DNA of 64,000 nt from a bacterium (GTDB lineage Bacteria > Zhuqueibacterota > Zhuqueibacteria > Residuimicrobiales > Oceaniaggregativiventaceae), in the NCBI GenBank assembly GCA_029565675.1, contig JAKQNP010000002.1:496001-560000 (forward strand), given 5' to 3'. Position numbers and translations under genes: made by a program. The notes under the pieces are model-generated. The model had not been told where the DNA came from. It searched no databases and was given only the letters and a program-made list of their open reading frames with translations. Below are positions 10,015 to 17,134 of this stretch, one piece after another (position 1 is the stretch's first letter; the number at the start of each line of letters is the position of its first letter).

Positions 10015-10101
10015 ATGATGCGACGGCGCCGAAATCGGCGGCTACAGCTGCCTTTAGAGGCGGCAGGTCGATTCGCCGTAAAAGTGGTGTTGTGGTGTTG
10101 A
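10015..10101 (+). CDS. Possible 28-residue leader ORF overlapping the ECF S-component start
   Basis: ATG 10015 opens an Arg-rich reading frame of 28 codons (MMRRRRNRRLQLPLEAAG...) after an AAGGAG element at 9994-9999. Its TGA (10099-10101) overlaps the likely ATG (10101) of the next gene. The S component itself has no good ribosome binding site, so translation of this short frame could be coupled to it. It could equally be a chance ORF or mark a sequencing frameshift. Confidence 0.3.
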   Translation: MMRRRRNRRLQLPLEAAGRFAVKVVLWC

Positions 10102-10658
10102 TGAATACCCGTACAACGGCATTGACCGCTCTGTTTGCGGCTTTGGCGGCAGCGGTTGGTTTTATTTTCGTCGCCATACCGAATCTGGAGTTTATCACCG
10201 CCACAATTTTCATCGGCGGTGCCGTTCTTGGCATACGCCGGGGAATGATTGCAGGCGGGATGGGCGAACTGATCTTTTCCTTGCTCAATCCCTATGGTAT
10301 GCCGGCATTGCCCATTTTGCTGGCCCAGGTGATGGTTATGGCCCTGGTTGGCGGAACGGGCGGTGTTTTTTACCGTGTGGTTGGGGGTGGCAGTTGGGGG
10401 TGGCGCGGTTACCTGGCGTGTGGTGCAGTGGGAATGGTGTTGACCGCCTTGTTCGACCTTTTGACGACATTGAGTTTTGCTCTTTTCATGTTCGGCTGGG
10501 AATGGCGGAAAATAGCCGCCAATCTTTTGACCGGTTTGAGTTTTTACCTCTTTCATATCATCATCAATACCTTGTCATTTGCCGTGGTTGTGCCGTTGTT
10601 GCTGCAGCGATTGGAATCGGTTTTTCGTTCTGCTGATGATCGGAAAGGAATTTTGTGA
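10101..10658 (+). CDS. ECF transporter S component (vitamin-binding membrane subunit)
   Basis: About 185 residues, nearly all hydrophobic, with five or six membrane segments. NTRTTALTALFAALAAAVGF, the PNLEFITATIFIGGAVLG loop and FSLLNPYGMPALPILLAQ fit the substrate-capture (S) subunit of energy-coupling-factor vitamin transporters. The likely start is ATG 10101; GTG 10092 and 10095 are in-frame alternatives. The gene is coupled to the following outer-membrane protein (GTGA overlap) and lies 2 kb from a cobalamin riboswitch, so cobalamin or a precursor is a reasonable but unproven substrate. No ECF ATPase or T subunit is in the window. Confidence 0.75.
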   Translation: MNTRTTALTALFAALAAAVGFIFVAIPNLEFITATIFIGGAVLGIRRGMIAGGMGELIFSLLNPYGMPALPILLAQVMVMALVGGTGGVFYRVVGGGSWGWRGYLACGAVGMVLTALFDLLTTLSFALFMFGWEWRKIAANLLTGLSFYLFHIIINTLSFAVVVPLLLQRLESVFRSADDRKGIL

Positions 10659-12508
10659 AAACTGCGTTGGTGTATGCGATATCAGGCCTTGTGATCTTGT
10701 TGTCGCAGACAGCATCTGCTGCGGATAGCGCCGCCATCGCCGGAGTCGGTCGGCTGGCGATATCCGACTCCAGCGGACAGGCGGATTTTTGGCGGGCCGA
10801 TTCATTGGTTGCGCGGCGGCAGCCCTATAGCTCTTTTGCCGATATTCTCAATACCTTGCCGGGGATCTCCATCGCGGATCGCGGCAGCACAGGCCAACCG
10901 TTATATGCATCGCTGTTCGGCGCGCCGCTTGGTCGTCAGGCGTTGCGCTACAACGGCCTGGATCTCGGCGATCCTCTAACCGGCTTGACTGATCTGAATC
11001 TCATCCCGACGGAGAGCCTGGCGGAGACCCGAGTGGTCTCGGATACAGAGTTGCGCCGTTTAGGATATAGCGGTGGTCCTGGTCAGGGTATTTCGTTGCG
11101 CACCATGGCGTTGGCCTCGGCCTCGGTGCCGGTACGCACCCGTATTGCCTACCGCACCGGCGGTATGGGCTATGACGATATCGATCTGCGGCTGGGGCTT
11201 TGGGCGATGCCCAAAGCCCGCATTGAAGCCGGCATTTTGCTGAAAAACAGCGACGGCATCGATCTTGCGCACGCGTATGAAGCGCAAAAGATCGATCTCG
11301 GCATCGAATCGCCTTTGATGCGCAAGTTCGCCATTCGCTACCAATTGCTGCGCAACATTTCGGATCTGGATTTGCTGTTGCCAACTCTTGCCCCGTCGAT
11401 GCCGGTTCTTGGCATCGATCGACCGCACCGCAAAGAGGTGCGCACCGATCATGGCTTTTCATTGAATCTGCCTGCTGCCGTTTTCCATCATTTGCAGATC
11501 ACCGACCTGCATCGGGAAATGTATCCCCGCCGGGATCGTGCGAAAATGGAAACCGTAGATGCTCTGCGCGCAAAGTGGTCCAGCCATTGGCAGGGGCGTT
11601 TTGGCTCGCTTTTGCCTGTTCTGGGCGCTCAGTGGCAGTTCACCCGGCTGGAGAGCCAGGCCTGGGGTGACACGGATGAGCATGAAGGCCGTTGGTGGTC
11701 GGGGATGGCCTGGCATTCCGGAATGCGGTCTCGTTTCTATGCCGGCGCTGCAGCGATTCAGACGCAAGACAACTGGGGTGTGTATCCGGAGGGAACCTTC
11801 GATTTCAAGCTCAAGTCCGTGGAAATGCGCGGTTGGTTTCGCAAGGAAGCGATTGCTCCGACCCTGGCGCAGCGAAAGGAACGCAGTGTGTTCGGCCAGG
11901 GCAATTCTGCGCTGGTCGATGAAAAACAGACAAGTGCCGGTTTGCTGATGCAGCGCAATGGCGAGCGGAGCGGCATCGCCTTTTCGGTCGCCTGGATCGA
12001 CCGTCAGCATCCTGTGTTGCGAAGATGGGACGGCGCGTCGTTGTCGATGAGCTATAGCAACGGTCCGGCGCAGGAATTTTTCTGCAGCGACATGGCGGTT
12101 CGTTGGCGTTTTTTGTCGTTTCTGACTCTGCACCTGCGCGGCCAATTGCTTGAATCGCGCGCCGACGATACAAACACCGTGATCGACCGGCCGGAAACAA
12201 TCGGCCGAATTCAAGTGGAGTTTCATCGCATCTGGTTTCGCGGCGATCTCGATTTCCGGTTTTTCGTCGGTGTCGACACTTGGGGCGAACAGCGAGGCAT
12301 GGCACCGTTCGGCGCTGAGATCGGTGGTGAGCCCCTGCTGCTGGAGGCGGCTGCACTGCCGTGGCTGCAGATCACGGCCGACGTCCACGACGTATCTTTG
12401 TTCGCGATGGCGGGCAATGCGCTCGATCTGGAGGTGCAATCGATGCCGGGTTTTGCCCAGCCTGGCCGATTTTTGCGCTTTGGTTTGGTGTGGAATTTCT
12501 ACGACTGA
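10655..12508 (+). CDS. Outer-membrane protein with TonB-receptor plug-like domain
   Basis: 617 residues starting at a GTG that overlaps the stop of the S-component gene. A signal peptide (1-22, ending TASA-ADS) is followed by a plug-like domain (about 45-150: SSFADILNTLPGISIADRG, QALRYNGLDLGDPLTGLTDLNLIPTESLAETRVV). The rest is a beta-rich barrel ending in LRFGLVWNFYD with a terminal aromatic-containing strand. There is no N-terminal carboxypeptidase-like domain and no clear TonB box. It probably forms an outer-membrane channel that feeds the ECF permease; the substrate is unknown. Confidence 0.7.
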   Translation: MKTALVYAISGLVILLSQTASAADSAAIAGVGRLAISDSSGQADFWRADSLVARRQPYSSFADILNTLPGISIADRGSTGQPLYASLFGAPLGRQALRYNGLDLGDPLTGLTDLNLIPTESLAETRVVSDTELRRLGYSGGPGQGISLRTMALASASVPVRTRIAYRTGGMGYDDIDLRLGLWAMPKARIEAGILLKNSDGIDLAHAYEAQKIDLGIESPLMRKFAIRYQLLRNISDLDLLLPTLAPSMPVLGIDRPHRKEVRTDHGFSLNLPAAVFHHLQITDLHREMYPRRDRAKMETVDALRAKWSSHWQGRFGSLLPVLGAQWQFTRLESQAWGDTDEHEGRWWSGMAWHSGMRSRFYAGAAAIQTQDNWGVYPEGTFDFKLKSVEMRGWFRKEAIAPTLAQRKERSVFGQGNSALVDEKQTSAGLLMQRNGERSGIAFSVAWIDRQHPVLRRWDGASLSMSYSNGPAQEFFCSDMAVRWRFLSFLTLHLRGQLLESRADDTNTVIDRPETIGRIQVEFHRIWFRGDLDFRFFVGVDTWGEQRGMAPFGAEIGGEPLLLEAAALPWLQITADVHDVSLFAMAGNALDLEVQSMPGFAQPGRFLRFGLVWNFYD

Positions 12509-12589: not shown

Positions 12590-12800
12590 CCATCCTCAAT
12601 ATGCGGGCCGGTCAAGGGAAGACGGTGTGAATCCGTCGCAGCCCCGCTACTGTAATCCCGATGCCGAGTTGTTCGGCTTTGTGGTCTGACCTCGGATGCC
12701 ACTGTTCGCGATACGAATGGGAAGGCGGTCAGATTCGGGAGAGCCAGGAGACCTGCCGGACTCGCCCTGAGCTGTAACCTTCGCGGGTGAGGGATGACAG
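12590..12800 (+). promoter_or_regulatory. Cobalamin riboswitch
   Basis: Matches the conserved cobalamin aptamer: AAGGGAAGACGGTGTGAATCC (about 12614-12634), the CCCCGCTACTGTAA segment, and the B12 box GCCAGGAGACCTGCC at 12743-12757. A downstream stem CTCGCCC/GGGTGAG (about 12761-12792) is the likely part of the expression platform. Adenosylcobalamin binding normally represses the downstream gene. The next gene, a BtuB-like receptor, starts about 180 nt later. Confidence 0.95.
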
Positions 12801-12982
12801 TAAGCCCTTTTTTCAACATGCCAGACCACCTGCTTTACCAGAGAAAACCGGCCGTTTTTGCAGTGGCGGATTGTTGCGCCATACCGGCCGCATGCGGGAT
12901 CGGTTTGGGTTGTTGATCTGCGTTTGCCGCCTTTTCTCTCCGTTCGAGGTTGCCTCAGCTTTGCATGCAAAGGATTGATTCC

Positions 12983-15217
12983 GTGCGACTGTTTTTTTCA
13001 ACTGCAACAAAAATCATTGCCTGCGCGTGGCTATTCAGCATTGCGCCGCTGTGGTCGCAATCGACCGTCAAGATCGAAGGCTGGGTGTGGGATGCCGAGA
13101 GCGGTCGTCCCTTGAGTGGGGCCAATATTCAGATCAGCGGCACGACGCTCGGCGCTGCTGCTGATGGTTTGGGATATTTTTCGTTTTCGGATCTTTTGGT
13201 TGGCGAATACGCTCTGGTGGCGACTTTTATAGGGTATGGTCCTCAGCGCATCGGCCATGTGCAAGTGCAACTGGACCAGCCGGTGCGGGTGGATTTCAAT
13301 CTCAAGCCGCAGATTTTGCAGATGCCGTTGATCGCTGTCACGGCCAATCGAGCCACGATCGAGCGGCCGCCAGACCAGGTGTTGACCGGCGAGAAGATCC
13401 GCACCAGCAATGCCCAGTCGCTCGGCGAACTGCTGCAAAACGTCAGCGGTCTGACCGTTGAGCGCACCGGTGTGGCCGGCGCGGACGCCGTCCTCTCGAT
13501 ACGCGGCAGCAAAAGCAATCAGGTTCTGGTTTTGCTCGATGGCATGCGGCTCAGCGATCCGCTGACCGGCGATGCCGACCTTTCAGCTGTGCCTCTGTCG
13601 TCGATCGAACGGATCGAGGTGTACAAAGGCGGGCAGTCGGATCAATACGGCAACGGTGCCATGGCCGGAGTCATCCACATCGTGACCCGGAAGGCGACCG
13701 AAAACCGTCTGGAAGGCAAACTGCAAGCAGGTGTCAGCGCCAATGAGCGGGCGAGTCTGTCTTTGCTGCGCTGTTACGGCGATTGGAACCTGCTCTTTTC
13801 CGGAGAGGTCGGCAAAAACGATGGCGACTATCGCTATACCTATGCACACGCCGGGATCGAACAAACGGCCATGCGGGTCAATGCCGACAGCCGCGATCGT
13901 TCGATCTATGGCAAAATCGGTTGGGATCCGGATTTTGCCGCCATTCAGCTCTCGTGGCAGGAGATGCACTCCGAGCGCGGACTTCCCGGACAGGTCTTTG
14001 CCCTGACGCCTTATGCCCGCGCTCACCTCGATCGCCGATTGGTGCGATTGCAGATGCGAAAAATGGTCGCGCAAGGCCATGTAACCGCATCGATCGCCTG
14101 GAATCGACAAAACTCCGCCTATGACAACCGCTACGATCGTTTTGCGGTGGCGCAGGAATATCGTTCGGTGCCGCCGTATTGGAACGAAAACAGCCTCGAC
14201 CAAAGATCAGCGGAGCTGACCGGCTATCACCGTTCTCATCGCATCGGGGTGCGAGCGGGAGCAGTCGCGGATTTGCAGGAATATCGCGATGTCGATCATC
14301 TTGCCTATGGCCAGGCGCCGGTCGGCAAAGCGAATTTGCGGGCAGGGGGCGTGTGGATTGGCGGCGAATATTTGCTGCTTGACCACCGCTTCGGTATCGA
14401 TCGCTGTGAGGTAAGCGCCGCGCTGCGCCAGGACTGGGTTCAGACAGACCGTTTGGCAATCGAGCGGCAGGACCGCCAGAGCAGCCCGAACCTGCGGCTG
14501 GTTGTGCAGAAAAATCTGCTTTTGGATTGGCAAGTGGTGGTTCAAAACGGCCGTTCTTTTCGCCTGCCCGGTTTTACCGATCTCTTTTTCGAGCAGTTCC
14601 GGGTCAAGGGCAATCCTGAATTGCTGCCGGAAAAAATGAACAACCGGCAGATCGATTTGACTGCCGCGTGGCACCGATTTTTCCCGGGACGCATTCGCAT
14701 CGCGCTCTTCAATAACCATATCGAAGATTTAATCATCTGGCGCATGGGCAATTTCGCTGTCTTTTCACCGGTGAACACCGACGCTCGTCTCCAGGGCCAG
14801 GAGATCGATCTGACGCTGGCTGATCGGGGGGACCGGCAGAGCCTGAGCATCTCCTATCTGCACTTGAACAGTGAAAATCGCAGTGAGAGGCGCACCGTCT
14901 TCGGCAAGCAACTGCCCTATCGCGCCGAACACAGTGCAAAACTATCGGTCCGGATGCACCTCGGGTCGCTGGAATGCCTCTACGATTGGCGCTGGGTGGG
15001 CGACCGTTTCGTCACCGAGGCCAATACCATCCGGATGGACGCTTATCATTTGCACGATCTGACCCTGGCGATGCCGCTCAATTCACTCCATCCCCGGTTG
15101 CAGACCAACTTGAGGCTGACAGTGACCAATCTGCTCGACACGCCGATCCAGATGTTTGAAAACGCGCCATTGCCCGGCCGGCAATGGCGTTTGGGAGTCG
15201 ATTTTGTCAAGCAATGA
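12983..15217 (+). CDS. btuB: BtuB-like TonB-dependent cobalamin receptor
   Basis: 744 residues from GTG 12983 (AAAGGA ribosome binding site); ATG 12965 and TTG 12950 are in-frame alternatives. A signal peptide (1-25) precedes a carboxypeptidase-regulatory-like beta domain (about 28-105, GWVWDAESGRPLSGANIQI), a TonB-box-like AVTANR, a plug (about 113-240; LGELLQNVSGLTVER, VLVLLDGMRLSDPLTGDADL, SIERIEVYKGG) and a 22-strand-type barrel. It takes up cobalamin across the outer membrane using TonB energy. The riboswitch upstream gives the substrate; the extra N-terminal domain is usual in Bacteroidota-like receptors. Confidence 0.9.
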   Translation: MRLFFSTATKIIACAWLFSIAPLWSQSTVKIEGWVWDAESGRPLSGANIQISGTTLGAAADGLGYFSFSDLLVGEYALVATFIGYGPQRIGHVQVQLDQPVRVDFNLKPQILQMPLIAVTANRATIERPPDQVLTGEKIRTSNAQSLGELLQNVSGLTVERTGVAGADAVLSIRGSKSNQVLVLLDGMRLSDPLTGDADLSAVPLSSIERIEVYKGGQSDQYGNGAMAGVIHIVTRKATENRLEGKLQAGVSANERASLSLLRCYGDWNLLFSGEVGKNDGDYRYTYAHAGIEQTAMRVNADSRDRSIYGKIGWDPDFAAIQLSWQEMHSERGLPGQVFALTPYARAHLDRRLVRLQMRKMVAQGHVTASIAWNRQNSAYDNRYDRFAVAQEYRSVPPYWNENSLDQRSAELTGYHRSHRIGVRAGAVADLQEYRDVDHLAYGQAPVGKANLRAGGVWIGGEYLLLDHRFGIDRCEVSAALRQDWVQTDRLAIERQDRQSSPNLRLVVQKNLLLDWQVVVQNGRSFRLPGFTDLFFEQFRVKGNPELLPEKMNNRQIDLTAAWHRFFPGRIRIALFNNHIEDLIIWRMGNFAVFSPVNTDARLQGQEIDLTLADRGDRQSLSISYLHLNSENRSERRTVFGKQLPYRAEHSAKLSVRMHLGSLECLYDWRWVGDRFVTEANTIRMDAYHLHDLTLAMPLNSLHPRLQTNLRLTVTNLLDTPIQMFENAPLPGRQWRLGVDFVKQ

Positions 15218-15235
15218 AGAGGAGATCGGATATTC

Positions 15236-17134
15236 ATGAAACAGATACGCTTGTTGTTTTTTATGCTTTTGTTAAGCCAGTACGCTACAGCCGCAGTGCC
15301 GCGGACCTTGTGGGTGGAGAACAGCACCGGGCGCACCCTGTCCCTGTTGGATCTGGAGAACGACAAAATTGAAAATGATGTGCTGCAATTGGGGCTCTAT
15401 CCCAATCAGATAGTCGTTTGGCAGAACAAAATATATGCGCTGTGCAGCGGCACGGCCGAGATTATGGTGATCGATCCGCAAAAGAAGGTGGTGGAGGAGC
15501 GAATCGCTCTGCCTATGGGCTCGAATCCCTATGAAATGGCGTTCGTGGGGGCGACGCGCTGTTATGTGACCCTGTCGCTGGCCAACAGCGTTGCGGTTGT
15601 GGATGTAAAACAAAAAGCGGTGATTGAACAAATCCCGGTCGGCACGGCGCCGCAGGGGTTGTTGGTCGAGGATCAAACCGCTTTTGTCACCAATACCGGT
15701 TTGCGGGGGTGGAGCGATTACACACAGGGATCGGTATCGCTGATCGATACAGGCAGCGATTCGGTGATCGTCGAAATCGATGTGCCAACGAATCCGCAGG
15801 CAGTGGTCGCAGCTCCGGATTATCGCTACTATGTGCTTTGCACTGGCGATTATGCTCAACAACCTGGTGTGCTGGCTGCGATGAGTTTGTACGATGCCAA
15901 TTGGAATTATCATCCGGCTGTGGTCGATACCTTTCTGATCGGCGGTGCTCCGGGCGATCTGGTCTGTACGGGATCGGGCAAGATCTATATGGTCGATTGG
16001 GGCGATACACGCGGCGGCCGTTTGTATAAATTTGATGTCTTTAGCGGTGAACTGGAACGCGGCACCGCCAATCCTTTGCGCGTCATTCAGGGAGCGACAC
16101 GCCTTTGCTATGACCGGGTGATGGAGGATCTCTATATCAGCGGTTTTATCGATGGCGTGGTTCAGCGTTTCGATCTGCAGACCGATACCATCGAACAGAG
16201 CTATGGATTCGGCGATGGAGCACAGGATATCGCCATCCTGGAGGCGATTTCCGATACCGATCCATGGGCGGATGAAGTCATCGCGTTTTCACCTGGCGAA
16301 AACTGGTCTGGTTTCGGAGCGAACCATTTCCCCTACAATGTTCTGGGTCCGCCGACTCGTGATGCCGCTGTTTCTGAATACAATCCTTCTTACAAAGCGA
16401 GCGATATTTTGTCGCTGGGATTCGGCGGCGAGATCATCCTGCGGTTCGACAACAATATCGTGTGCGACGGAGAGGGGGCCGATTTTCTTGTCTTCGAAAA
16501 TTGCTTCATCTCCTGGTTTTCGCCGCGTCCGGTGGTTGAGCCGGCGATTGTGGCGGTCAGTCAGGATGGCGAGCATTGGATGACTTTTCCTTTCGACACC
16601 ACCACCTTGCAGGGTTTGGCCGGTGTGACGCCGGTGCGCAGCACCCAGTATCCCACCGTGCCGGATTCTTCCGGTGCAGACGGATTTGATCTGGCAGATT
16701 TGCCTGTCGACTGGATCCGTTATATTCGGCTGACCGATATAGGCAACAACTGGCGGAGCAGTGAAAAACACCGCGATTTTGACCTGGATGCGGTGGTTGC
16801 GGTGAACAGCCGACCCGATGTCGCGAGCGGAGTGGCTGATCCGCTGCCGATGCCACAGGCTTTTCCCCTGGTACAGAACTATCCCAATCCATTCAATCCG
16901 CGGACGACCATTAAAGTCGATCTGCAGCAGAGCGGCAGATTGCGCATCGACATCCACAATCTTGCCGGCCAGCACGTCGTCCAGCTTTTCGATGAACAGG
17001 TTCAGCCCGGCCCGACTGCGGTGATCTGGCATGGCGATGACGCTTTTCACCAACCGGTGCCAAGCGGCCTGTATCTGGCCCGGATCTCCATGAACGGCGA
17101 CTGCCATACCCTGAAGATGACCTTGCTGCGCTAG
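15236..17134 (+). CDS. Surface beta-propeller protein with T9SS-like sorting domain; BtuG-like B12 capture candidate
   Basis: 632 residues. A signal peptide (1-19) is followed by a YncE/YVTN-type propeller (about 22-335; repeats such as NSVAVVDVKQKAVIEQIPVG and GSVSLIDTGSDSVIVEIDV). Next comes a surface-protein beta domain (about 345-525; GADFLVFENCF, VAVSQDGEHWMTFPF, DLDAVVAV). The C-terminal module (545-632) starts QNYPNPFNP and ends in a beta fold, as in type IX-like secreted cargo. The gene is 18 bp downstream of btuB under the same riboswitch. In Bacteroides, BtuG is a seven-bladed propeller that caps BtuB and binds B12; I infer the same role. An unrelated cell-surface protein is the alternative. 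Confidence 0.75.
   Translation: MKQIRLLFFMLLLSQYATAAVPRTLWVENSTGRTLSLLDLENDKIENDVLQLGLYPNQIVVWQNKIYALCSGTAEIMVIDPQKKVVEERIALPMGSNPYEMAFVGATRCYVTLSLANSVAVVDVKQKAVIEQIPVGTAPQGLLVEDQTAFVTNTGLRGWSDYTQGSVSLIDTGSDSVIVEIDVPTNPQAVVAAPDYRYYVLCTGDYAQQPGVLAAMSLYDANWNYHPAVVDTFLIGGAPGDLVCTGSGKIYMVDWGDTRGGRLYKFDVFSGELERGTANPLRVIQGATRLCYDRVMEDLYISGFIDGVVQRFDLQTDTIEQSYGFGDGAQDIAILEAISDTDPWADEVIAFSPGENWSGFGANHFPYNVLGPPTRDAAVSEYNPSYKASDILSLGFGGEIILRFDNNIVCDGEGADFLVFENCFISWFSPRPVVEPAIVAVSQDGEHWMTFPFDTTTLQGLAGVTPVRSTQYPTVPDSSGADGFDLADLPVDWIRYIRLTDIGNNWRSSEKHRDFDLDAVVAVNSRPDVASGVADPLPMPQAFPLVQNYPNPFNPRTTIKVDLQQSGRLRIDIHNLAGQHVVQLFDEQVQPGPTAVIWHGDDAFHQPVPSGLYLARISMNGDCHTLKMTLLR

Follow-up and report, generated by a model that had tools for sequence, protein, structure and literature searches.

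The window (the whole 64,000-nucleotide stretch of DNA that was analysed, from the 4.43-Mb, 95 percent complete genome G000) encodes, downstream of a cobalamin riboswitch, a BtuB-type TonB-dependent receptor and a lid protein that, by sequence and structural model, is a BtuG-BtuH fusion with a BtuG1-like architecture. The lid ends in a sorting domain of the type IX secretion system (T9SS) type and is apparently placed on the cell surface by another export machine than the lids of Bacteroides. A BtuG-BtuH fusion was ruled out as novel in itself, since BtuG1 of Bacteroides thetaiotaomicron has the same build, and the novelty therefore rests on the mode of display and not on the domain pair, which is known already. 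Taken as a whole, the locus is likely to be a B12 scavenging operon, in a scheme that extends from the riboswitch, via the T9SS-displayed lid and BtuB, to an ECF-type S-component; within this scheme, we infer B12 binding by each module of the lid, capping of BtuB and hand-over to it, anchoring, and the substrate of the ECF component. A close relative (locus L063), whose lid has 68 percent identity to that of the window, carries the record name candidate division KSB1 bacterium Zod_Metabat.28.

Riboswitch, receptor and lid

All features described here lie on the forward strand. The cobalamin riboswitch aptamer (RF00174; 12593..12774) is full-length (model positions 1-189) and scores 75.4 bits (E 9.3e-17) against a gathering score of 31.5. 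The copy ahead of BtuB is the single RF00174 match in the whole 4.43-Mb genome, and exactly one match each was found in 17 of the 19 relatives searched. A conserved ACCTTCGCGGGTGAGG hairpin followed by a T-run (12776..12817), present 3' of the aptamer in the window and in many relatives, is a putative expression platform; the hairpin itself is probably P13/L13. In about 14 of 19 relatives, judged by eye, a clear intrinsic terminator (hairpin plus T-run) lies between the aptamer and BtuB, which suggests transcription termination. The version in the window is weak (fold z-score -1.57), and a simple scanner found neither a sigma-70 promoter nor a terminator 3' of the aptamer there. Across relatives, between 19 and 436 nt separate the aptamer from BtuB, leaving aside one mis-paired value.

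The receptor gene (12983..15217) starts with GTG at 12983 after AAAGGA, stops at 15215-15217, and encodes a signal peptide, a CarboxypepD_reg domain, a plug and a barrel (Pfam Plug and TonB_dep_Rec). Its top equivalog match is TIGR01779, at 148 bits, under the cut-off of 599.7 for that model. The best PDB chain for a receptor family profile built from 22 homologues is 8blw_A, BtuB1 of B. thetaiotaomicron (E 5e-58), and the top four Foldseek matches are the BtuBs of the B. thetaiotaomicron BtuBG complexes, ranked before E. coli BtuB. By sequence and predicted fold, the receptor is thus a BtuB plug and barrel protein most like BtuB1-3 of B. thetaiotaomicron, and this homology, together with the riboswitch, points to cobalamin transport. 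The sequence-only reading, which had placed a cobalamin riboswitch ahead of a BtuB-like receptor and a propeller gene 18 bp beyond it, was borne out on both counts: the gap between the BtuB stop and the lid ATG at 15236 is exactly 18 bp, with both genes in the same reading frame.

The 632-residue product of the lid gene (15236-17134) begins with a signal peptide and continues with a propeller and a second beta domain; a disordered linker (residues 530-554) then leads to a C-terminal beta domain. The AlphaFold2 model of the lid has a mean pLDDT of 86 and a pTM of 0.75. The signal peptide (15236..15292) contains no lipobox cysteine, as judged from the sequence and from an alignment of fusion homologues (A1), and is followed by nearly no linker, with the first propeller strand at residue 24. 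The propeller (residues about 20-335; 15293..16240) is of the YVTN/YncE type, an assignment made by fold comparison with the blades not counted. Its profile (A1) matches BtuG1 (8blw_B) at E 2.7e-21, along with BtuG2/G3 chains, and Foldseek with the lid model ranked BtuG1 first (650 aligned columns), with an archaeal S-layer propeller second and BtuG2/BtuG3 next. Together with the conserved pairing with BtuB described below, these matches uphold the earlier proposal of a BtuG-like capture propeller.

That proposal had also joined a second surface beta domain to the propeller; the domain is indeed present, but its BtuH-type identity had been missed. For this domain (residues about 336-528; 16241..16819; hereafter the H domain), a single-sequence search matched BtuH2 (7biz) at E 0.0042, and a 50-sequence profile searched against 177,635 PDB sequences matched only BtuG1 (8blw_B, E 2e-4) and BtuH2 (7biz, E 0.14). 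Residue N299 of the BtuH2 chain aligns with an Asn found in every one of the 50 H domains. An offset of 100, which is supported because chain residue Q233 then becomes the listed Gln333, turns N299 into Asn399, one of two BtuH2 residues reported to contact the phosphate and ribose of B12 (PMC8941943). The B12 contacts listed for BtuH2 are Gln333, Asn399, His476, Tyr510, Trp511 and Trp577 (PMC8941943); the Asn399 equivalent is invariant, the alignment of Gln333 is uncertain, and the other four fall in the unaligned C-terminal half. The window H domain is also shorter than that of BtuH2. On these sequence comparisons, the lid probably has two B12 sites.

Type IX display and conservation of the locus

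The C-terminal domain of the lid (16880..17131), with its QNYPNPFNP tail, scores 25.4 bits with TIGR04183, against a cut-off of 23, and in combination with the signal peptide this marks the lid as probable T9SS cargo of the type A-like kind. The PNPFN motif does not vary among the 21 fusion homologues in alignment A1, and no convincing lipobox was found in the window lid or in these homologues, which sets the lid apart from the BtuG surface lipoproteins with their N-terminal lipobox. In genome G000, PorU scores 892 bits (cut-off 420), SprA is present (over its cut-off in 59 of 60 genomes of the class), and the PorV match, at 224 bits, is slightly below its cut-off of 250; GldM gave no match in a search where the positive control also gave none. 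Dozens of similarly tailed proteins are encoded in the same genome. We also noticed three very large proteins (C62:706554, C62:85057 and C36:22171) with C-terminal sorting domains and PorU matches that are below cut-off but extend over much of the model; these are probably C25-type proteases or PorU paralogues. The claim that a T9SS-like tail takes the place of a lipobox was supported by the TIGR04183 score, the missing lipobox cysteine and the presence of PorU and SprA. In BtuBG complexes, an N-terminal linker has been proposed as a hinge (PMC10404256); with nearly no such linker here, the lid would therefore need to be tethered from its other end.

The fusion, full or cut by a contig end, occurs in 25 of 60 class genomes, and BtuB adjoins it wherever visible. 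In all 20 relatives with a contig reaching far enough, the order is riboswitch, BtuB, fusion, and because this order recurs without exception the arrangement is not due to chance; the search of relatives thus found the BtuB-propeller pair conserved. In the remaining four fusion loci the contig stops too early to show the full order, in one case just within the riboswitch. Three genomes (G010, G014 and G015) have the riboswitch and BtuB with the lid absent, and the lid is therefore dispensable there. At loci L143, L144 and L145, a single cobalamin riboswitch stands ahead of BtuB without any lid gene. Another locus (L066, 3707-10040) combines two riboswitch-box matches, an ECF S-component, BtuB, the fusion and a second propeller.

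The modules are also found split or rearranged. In family f9 (L050-L052), one riboswitch precedes separate genes for an H protein with the tail, for BtuB and for a propeller that has a lipobox-like cysteine, two of these three propellers scoring well above the DUF5074 cut-off, and in L053 the propeller has the tail and no H domain. Judging from these loci, a lipid and a T9SS tail may stand in for one another as surface anchors for the modules. Along with the conserved pairing, the fold search and the presence of PorU and SprA, they agree with the earlier suggestion of a different way of displaying the same capture protein.

A genome scan recovered H-domain relatives from records of metagenome-assembled genomes (MAGs) labelled KSB1, Calditrichota, Ignavibacteria, Kapabacteria, Melioribacter and Chlorobiota, as well as Fermentibacteria, Bacteroidota, Deltaproteobacteria, Binatia, Planctomycetia and Armatimonadetes, although such labels are unreliable for phylum counts, as the titles of L064 (Actinomycetota) and L079 (Gemmatimonadota) clash with their KSB1-like loci. 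Most of these relatives consist of a signal peptide, a single H domain and a C-terminal module. Two sets of distant loci were scanned for a cobalamin riboswitch, which 12 of 15 loci had in one set and 9 of 11 in the other. Standalone H proteins with a tail are common. In place of the PNPF tail, the H proteins of L079 and L118, which lie outside the main T9SS lineages, have dockerin-like C-terminal repeats (weak Pfam matches), and the C-terminal display module may thus be swapped by lineage; by eye, L099 and L129 have dockerin-like ends too. Pfam holds no model for the H domain. The NCBIfam model NF033170 (LIC_13355 family lipoprotein) matches part of all 50 H domains (best 6.4e-11), and on the window H domain the match is partial and far under the curated cut-off. 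A generic adhesin was considered as an identity for this domain and rejected, given the PDB matches and the riboswitch association.

Alternative readings and the inner-membrane step

It is rather unlikely, in our view, that the lid is a free capture protein, exported by the T9SS and binding B12 at the surface or after release in the manner of BtuH/BtuJ-type proteins, without capping BtuB. BtuB and lid were folded as one chain, with the single TGA between them read through and with 35 further alignment rows (four paired). Each part came out with good confidence (pLDDT 87), but the pTM of 0.57 was about that expected of the barrel by itself and the relative placement was not confident, so the model gives no support to docking and does not refute capping either. 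This outcome, the near absence of the N-terminal tether linker that is the presumed hinge of BtuBG (PMC10404256), and the frequency of tailed standalone H proteins would all fit a free protein. However, pairing with BtuB is tight in every fusion locus, the receptor is closer to BtuG-capped BtuBs than to E. coli BtuB, and the propeller is BtuG-like in both sequence and fold. A related question is whether the propeller alone binds B12, the second domain being a surface jelly-roll of a generic kind that plays no part in B12 capture. The BtuH homology is partial, with low identity, and for five of the six contacts listed the alignment gives no certain counterpart; yet we consider this reading unlikely, given that PDB matches are limited to two B12-binding H domains, that the H-domain family on its own tracks cobalamin riboswitches across many phyla, and that the position matching the phosphate-contact Asn never varies.

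The tail could also be a structural or adhesive beta domain, FlgD-like or Por-like, on a protein that remains in the periplasm or gets to the surface by another route. The tail does score with the Pfam model FlgD_ig, PorV is under its cut-off, and GldM was not found, albeit in a search lacking a working positive control. Against this stand the TIGR04183 score above cut-off, the presence of PorU and SprA, the dozens of other proteins of this genome with a tail of this kind, and the split loci, which put tail and lipobox on different partners, making this reading quite improbable. A T9SS-displayed lid that captures B12 and caps BtuB is the reading we follow below.

Upstream of the riboswitch, the window encodes an ECF-type S-component (10092..10658), a candidate cobalamin transporter subunit, whose profile has as its sole PDB match 6fnp_A (E 6.8e-8), from the ECF-CbrT structure (PMC5997447), identifying it as a CbrT homologue. 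A second TonB-plug outer-membrane protein (10655..12508; Plug 23.5 bits, just under cut-off) is encoded with a 4-bp overlap with the ECF gene, is kept at this place, ahead of the riboswitch, in a number of relatives, and has a C-terminal RWGFVWNFxD motif. In genome G000, searches found neither CobI/CbiL nor a BtuC/FecCD match above cut-off, whereas eight proteins with a B12-binding domain scored above cut-off and one CbiQ/EcfT-type protein is present. Because no BtuC was found, the CbrT-like S-component is probably the inner-membrane B12 importer. Counting matches over 290 bits as true BtuC, the S-component occurs in none of the 5 genomes with BtuC and in 36 of the 37 without it, among genomes at least 90 percent complete (Fisher p 7e-6, phylogeny ignored). 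Across all 60 class genomes, of which one has both, p is 5e-4, phylogeny again ignored. The near mutual exclusion of the two gives a lead on the missing inner-membrane step. Presence of the fusion showed no association with either ECF-S or BtuC across class genomes. In L066 and L079, the order is riboswitch box, ECF-S, BtuB, fusion.

According to the proposed mechanism, low intracellular B12 would allow the riboswitch to permit production of BtuB and the lid. The lid would cross the inner membrane by Sec and be taken out by the T9SS, its C-terminal sorting domain being swapped for a surface anchor, and would then offer two B12-capture modules, the BtuG-type propeller and the BtuH-type domain, as BtuG1 does in B. 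thetaiotaomicron. The propeller, most likely seated on the barrel as a lid, would pass B12 on to BtuB, TonB energy would move it through BtuB into the periplasm, and the CbrT-like S-component with the single CbiQ/EcfT-type protein would probably carry it across the inner membrane.

Relation to known systems

The locus is similar to BtuB1-BtuG1 of B. thetaiotaomicron (8BLW, PMC10404256), where a riboswitch-controlled TonB-dependent transporter is followed, in the same order, by a propeller-BtuH fusion, and which gave the best structural match for the lid and the best sequence match for the receptor. In contrast with BtuG1, a lipoprotein lipidated at its N terminus to which it has about 16 percent identity, the window lid has no lipobox or N-terminal linker, carries a C-terminal T9SS domain, and comes from another phylum. 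BtuH2 (7BIZ, PMC8941943) shares H-domain homology and the invariant Asn position that contacts the B12 phosphate, but it is a surface lipoprotein with Ig-like (PKD) domains before its H domain, whereas the shorter H domain of the window follows a propeller. BtuJ/DUF4465 proteins (PMC13398666) are secreted beta-jellyroll B12 binders that occur also outside the gut; membership in this group was rejected, with no Pfam match to DUF4465 in 25 H domains scanned. The LIC_13355 lipoprotein model NF033170, to which H domains have a partial likeness, has no function assigned in its library. CbrT (6FNP, PMC5997447) comes from Lactobacillus, which has no outer membrane, while the S-component of the window belongs to a diderm and is encoded beside BtuB.

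In its signal peptide and TIGR04183 domain, and in the accompanying PorU and SprA, the lid resembles T9SS type A cargo, although some papers (PMC7906972, for example) describe the T9SS as restricted to Bacteroidetes and the present genome is KSB1. Lipoprotein-capped TonB transporters have likewise been said to seem exclusive to Bacteroidetes (PMC10404256). When the literature was searched for BtuG together with T9SS, the sole match concerned the BAM complex, judging by its title and abstract. We give an even chance to the broadest form of the proposal, in which a T9SS-delivered, C-terminally held lid, a reversal of the N-terminal lipid tether known from BtuG lids, caps a TonB-dependent transporter outside Bacteroidota and feeds a CbrT-like ECF system, not BtuCDF, with the H domain as a multi-phylum B12-capture family. 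The two-module B12 lid would thereby extend to KSB1 with a different route of export and attachment, and the H-domain family could be used to recognise B12 scavenging across many phyla without cultured members. Moreover, fused and split modules with different anchors in sister lineages would offer a comparative test of the need for an N-terminal lipid hinge.
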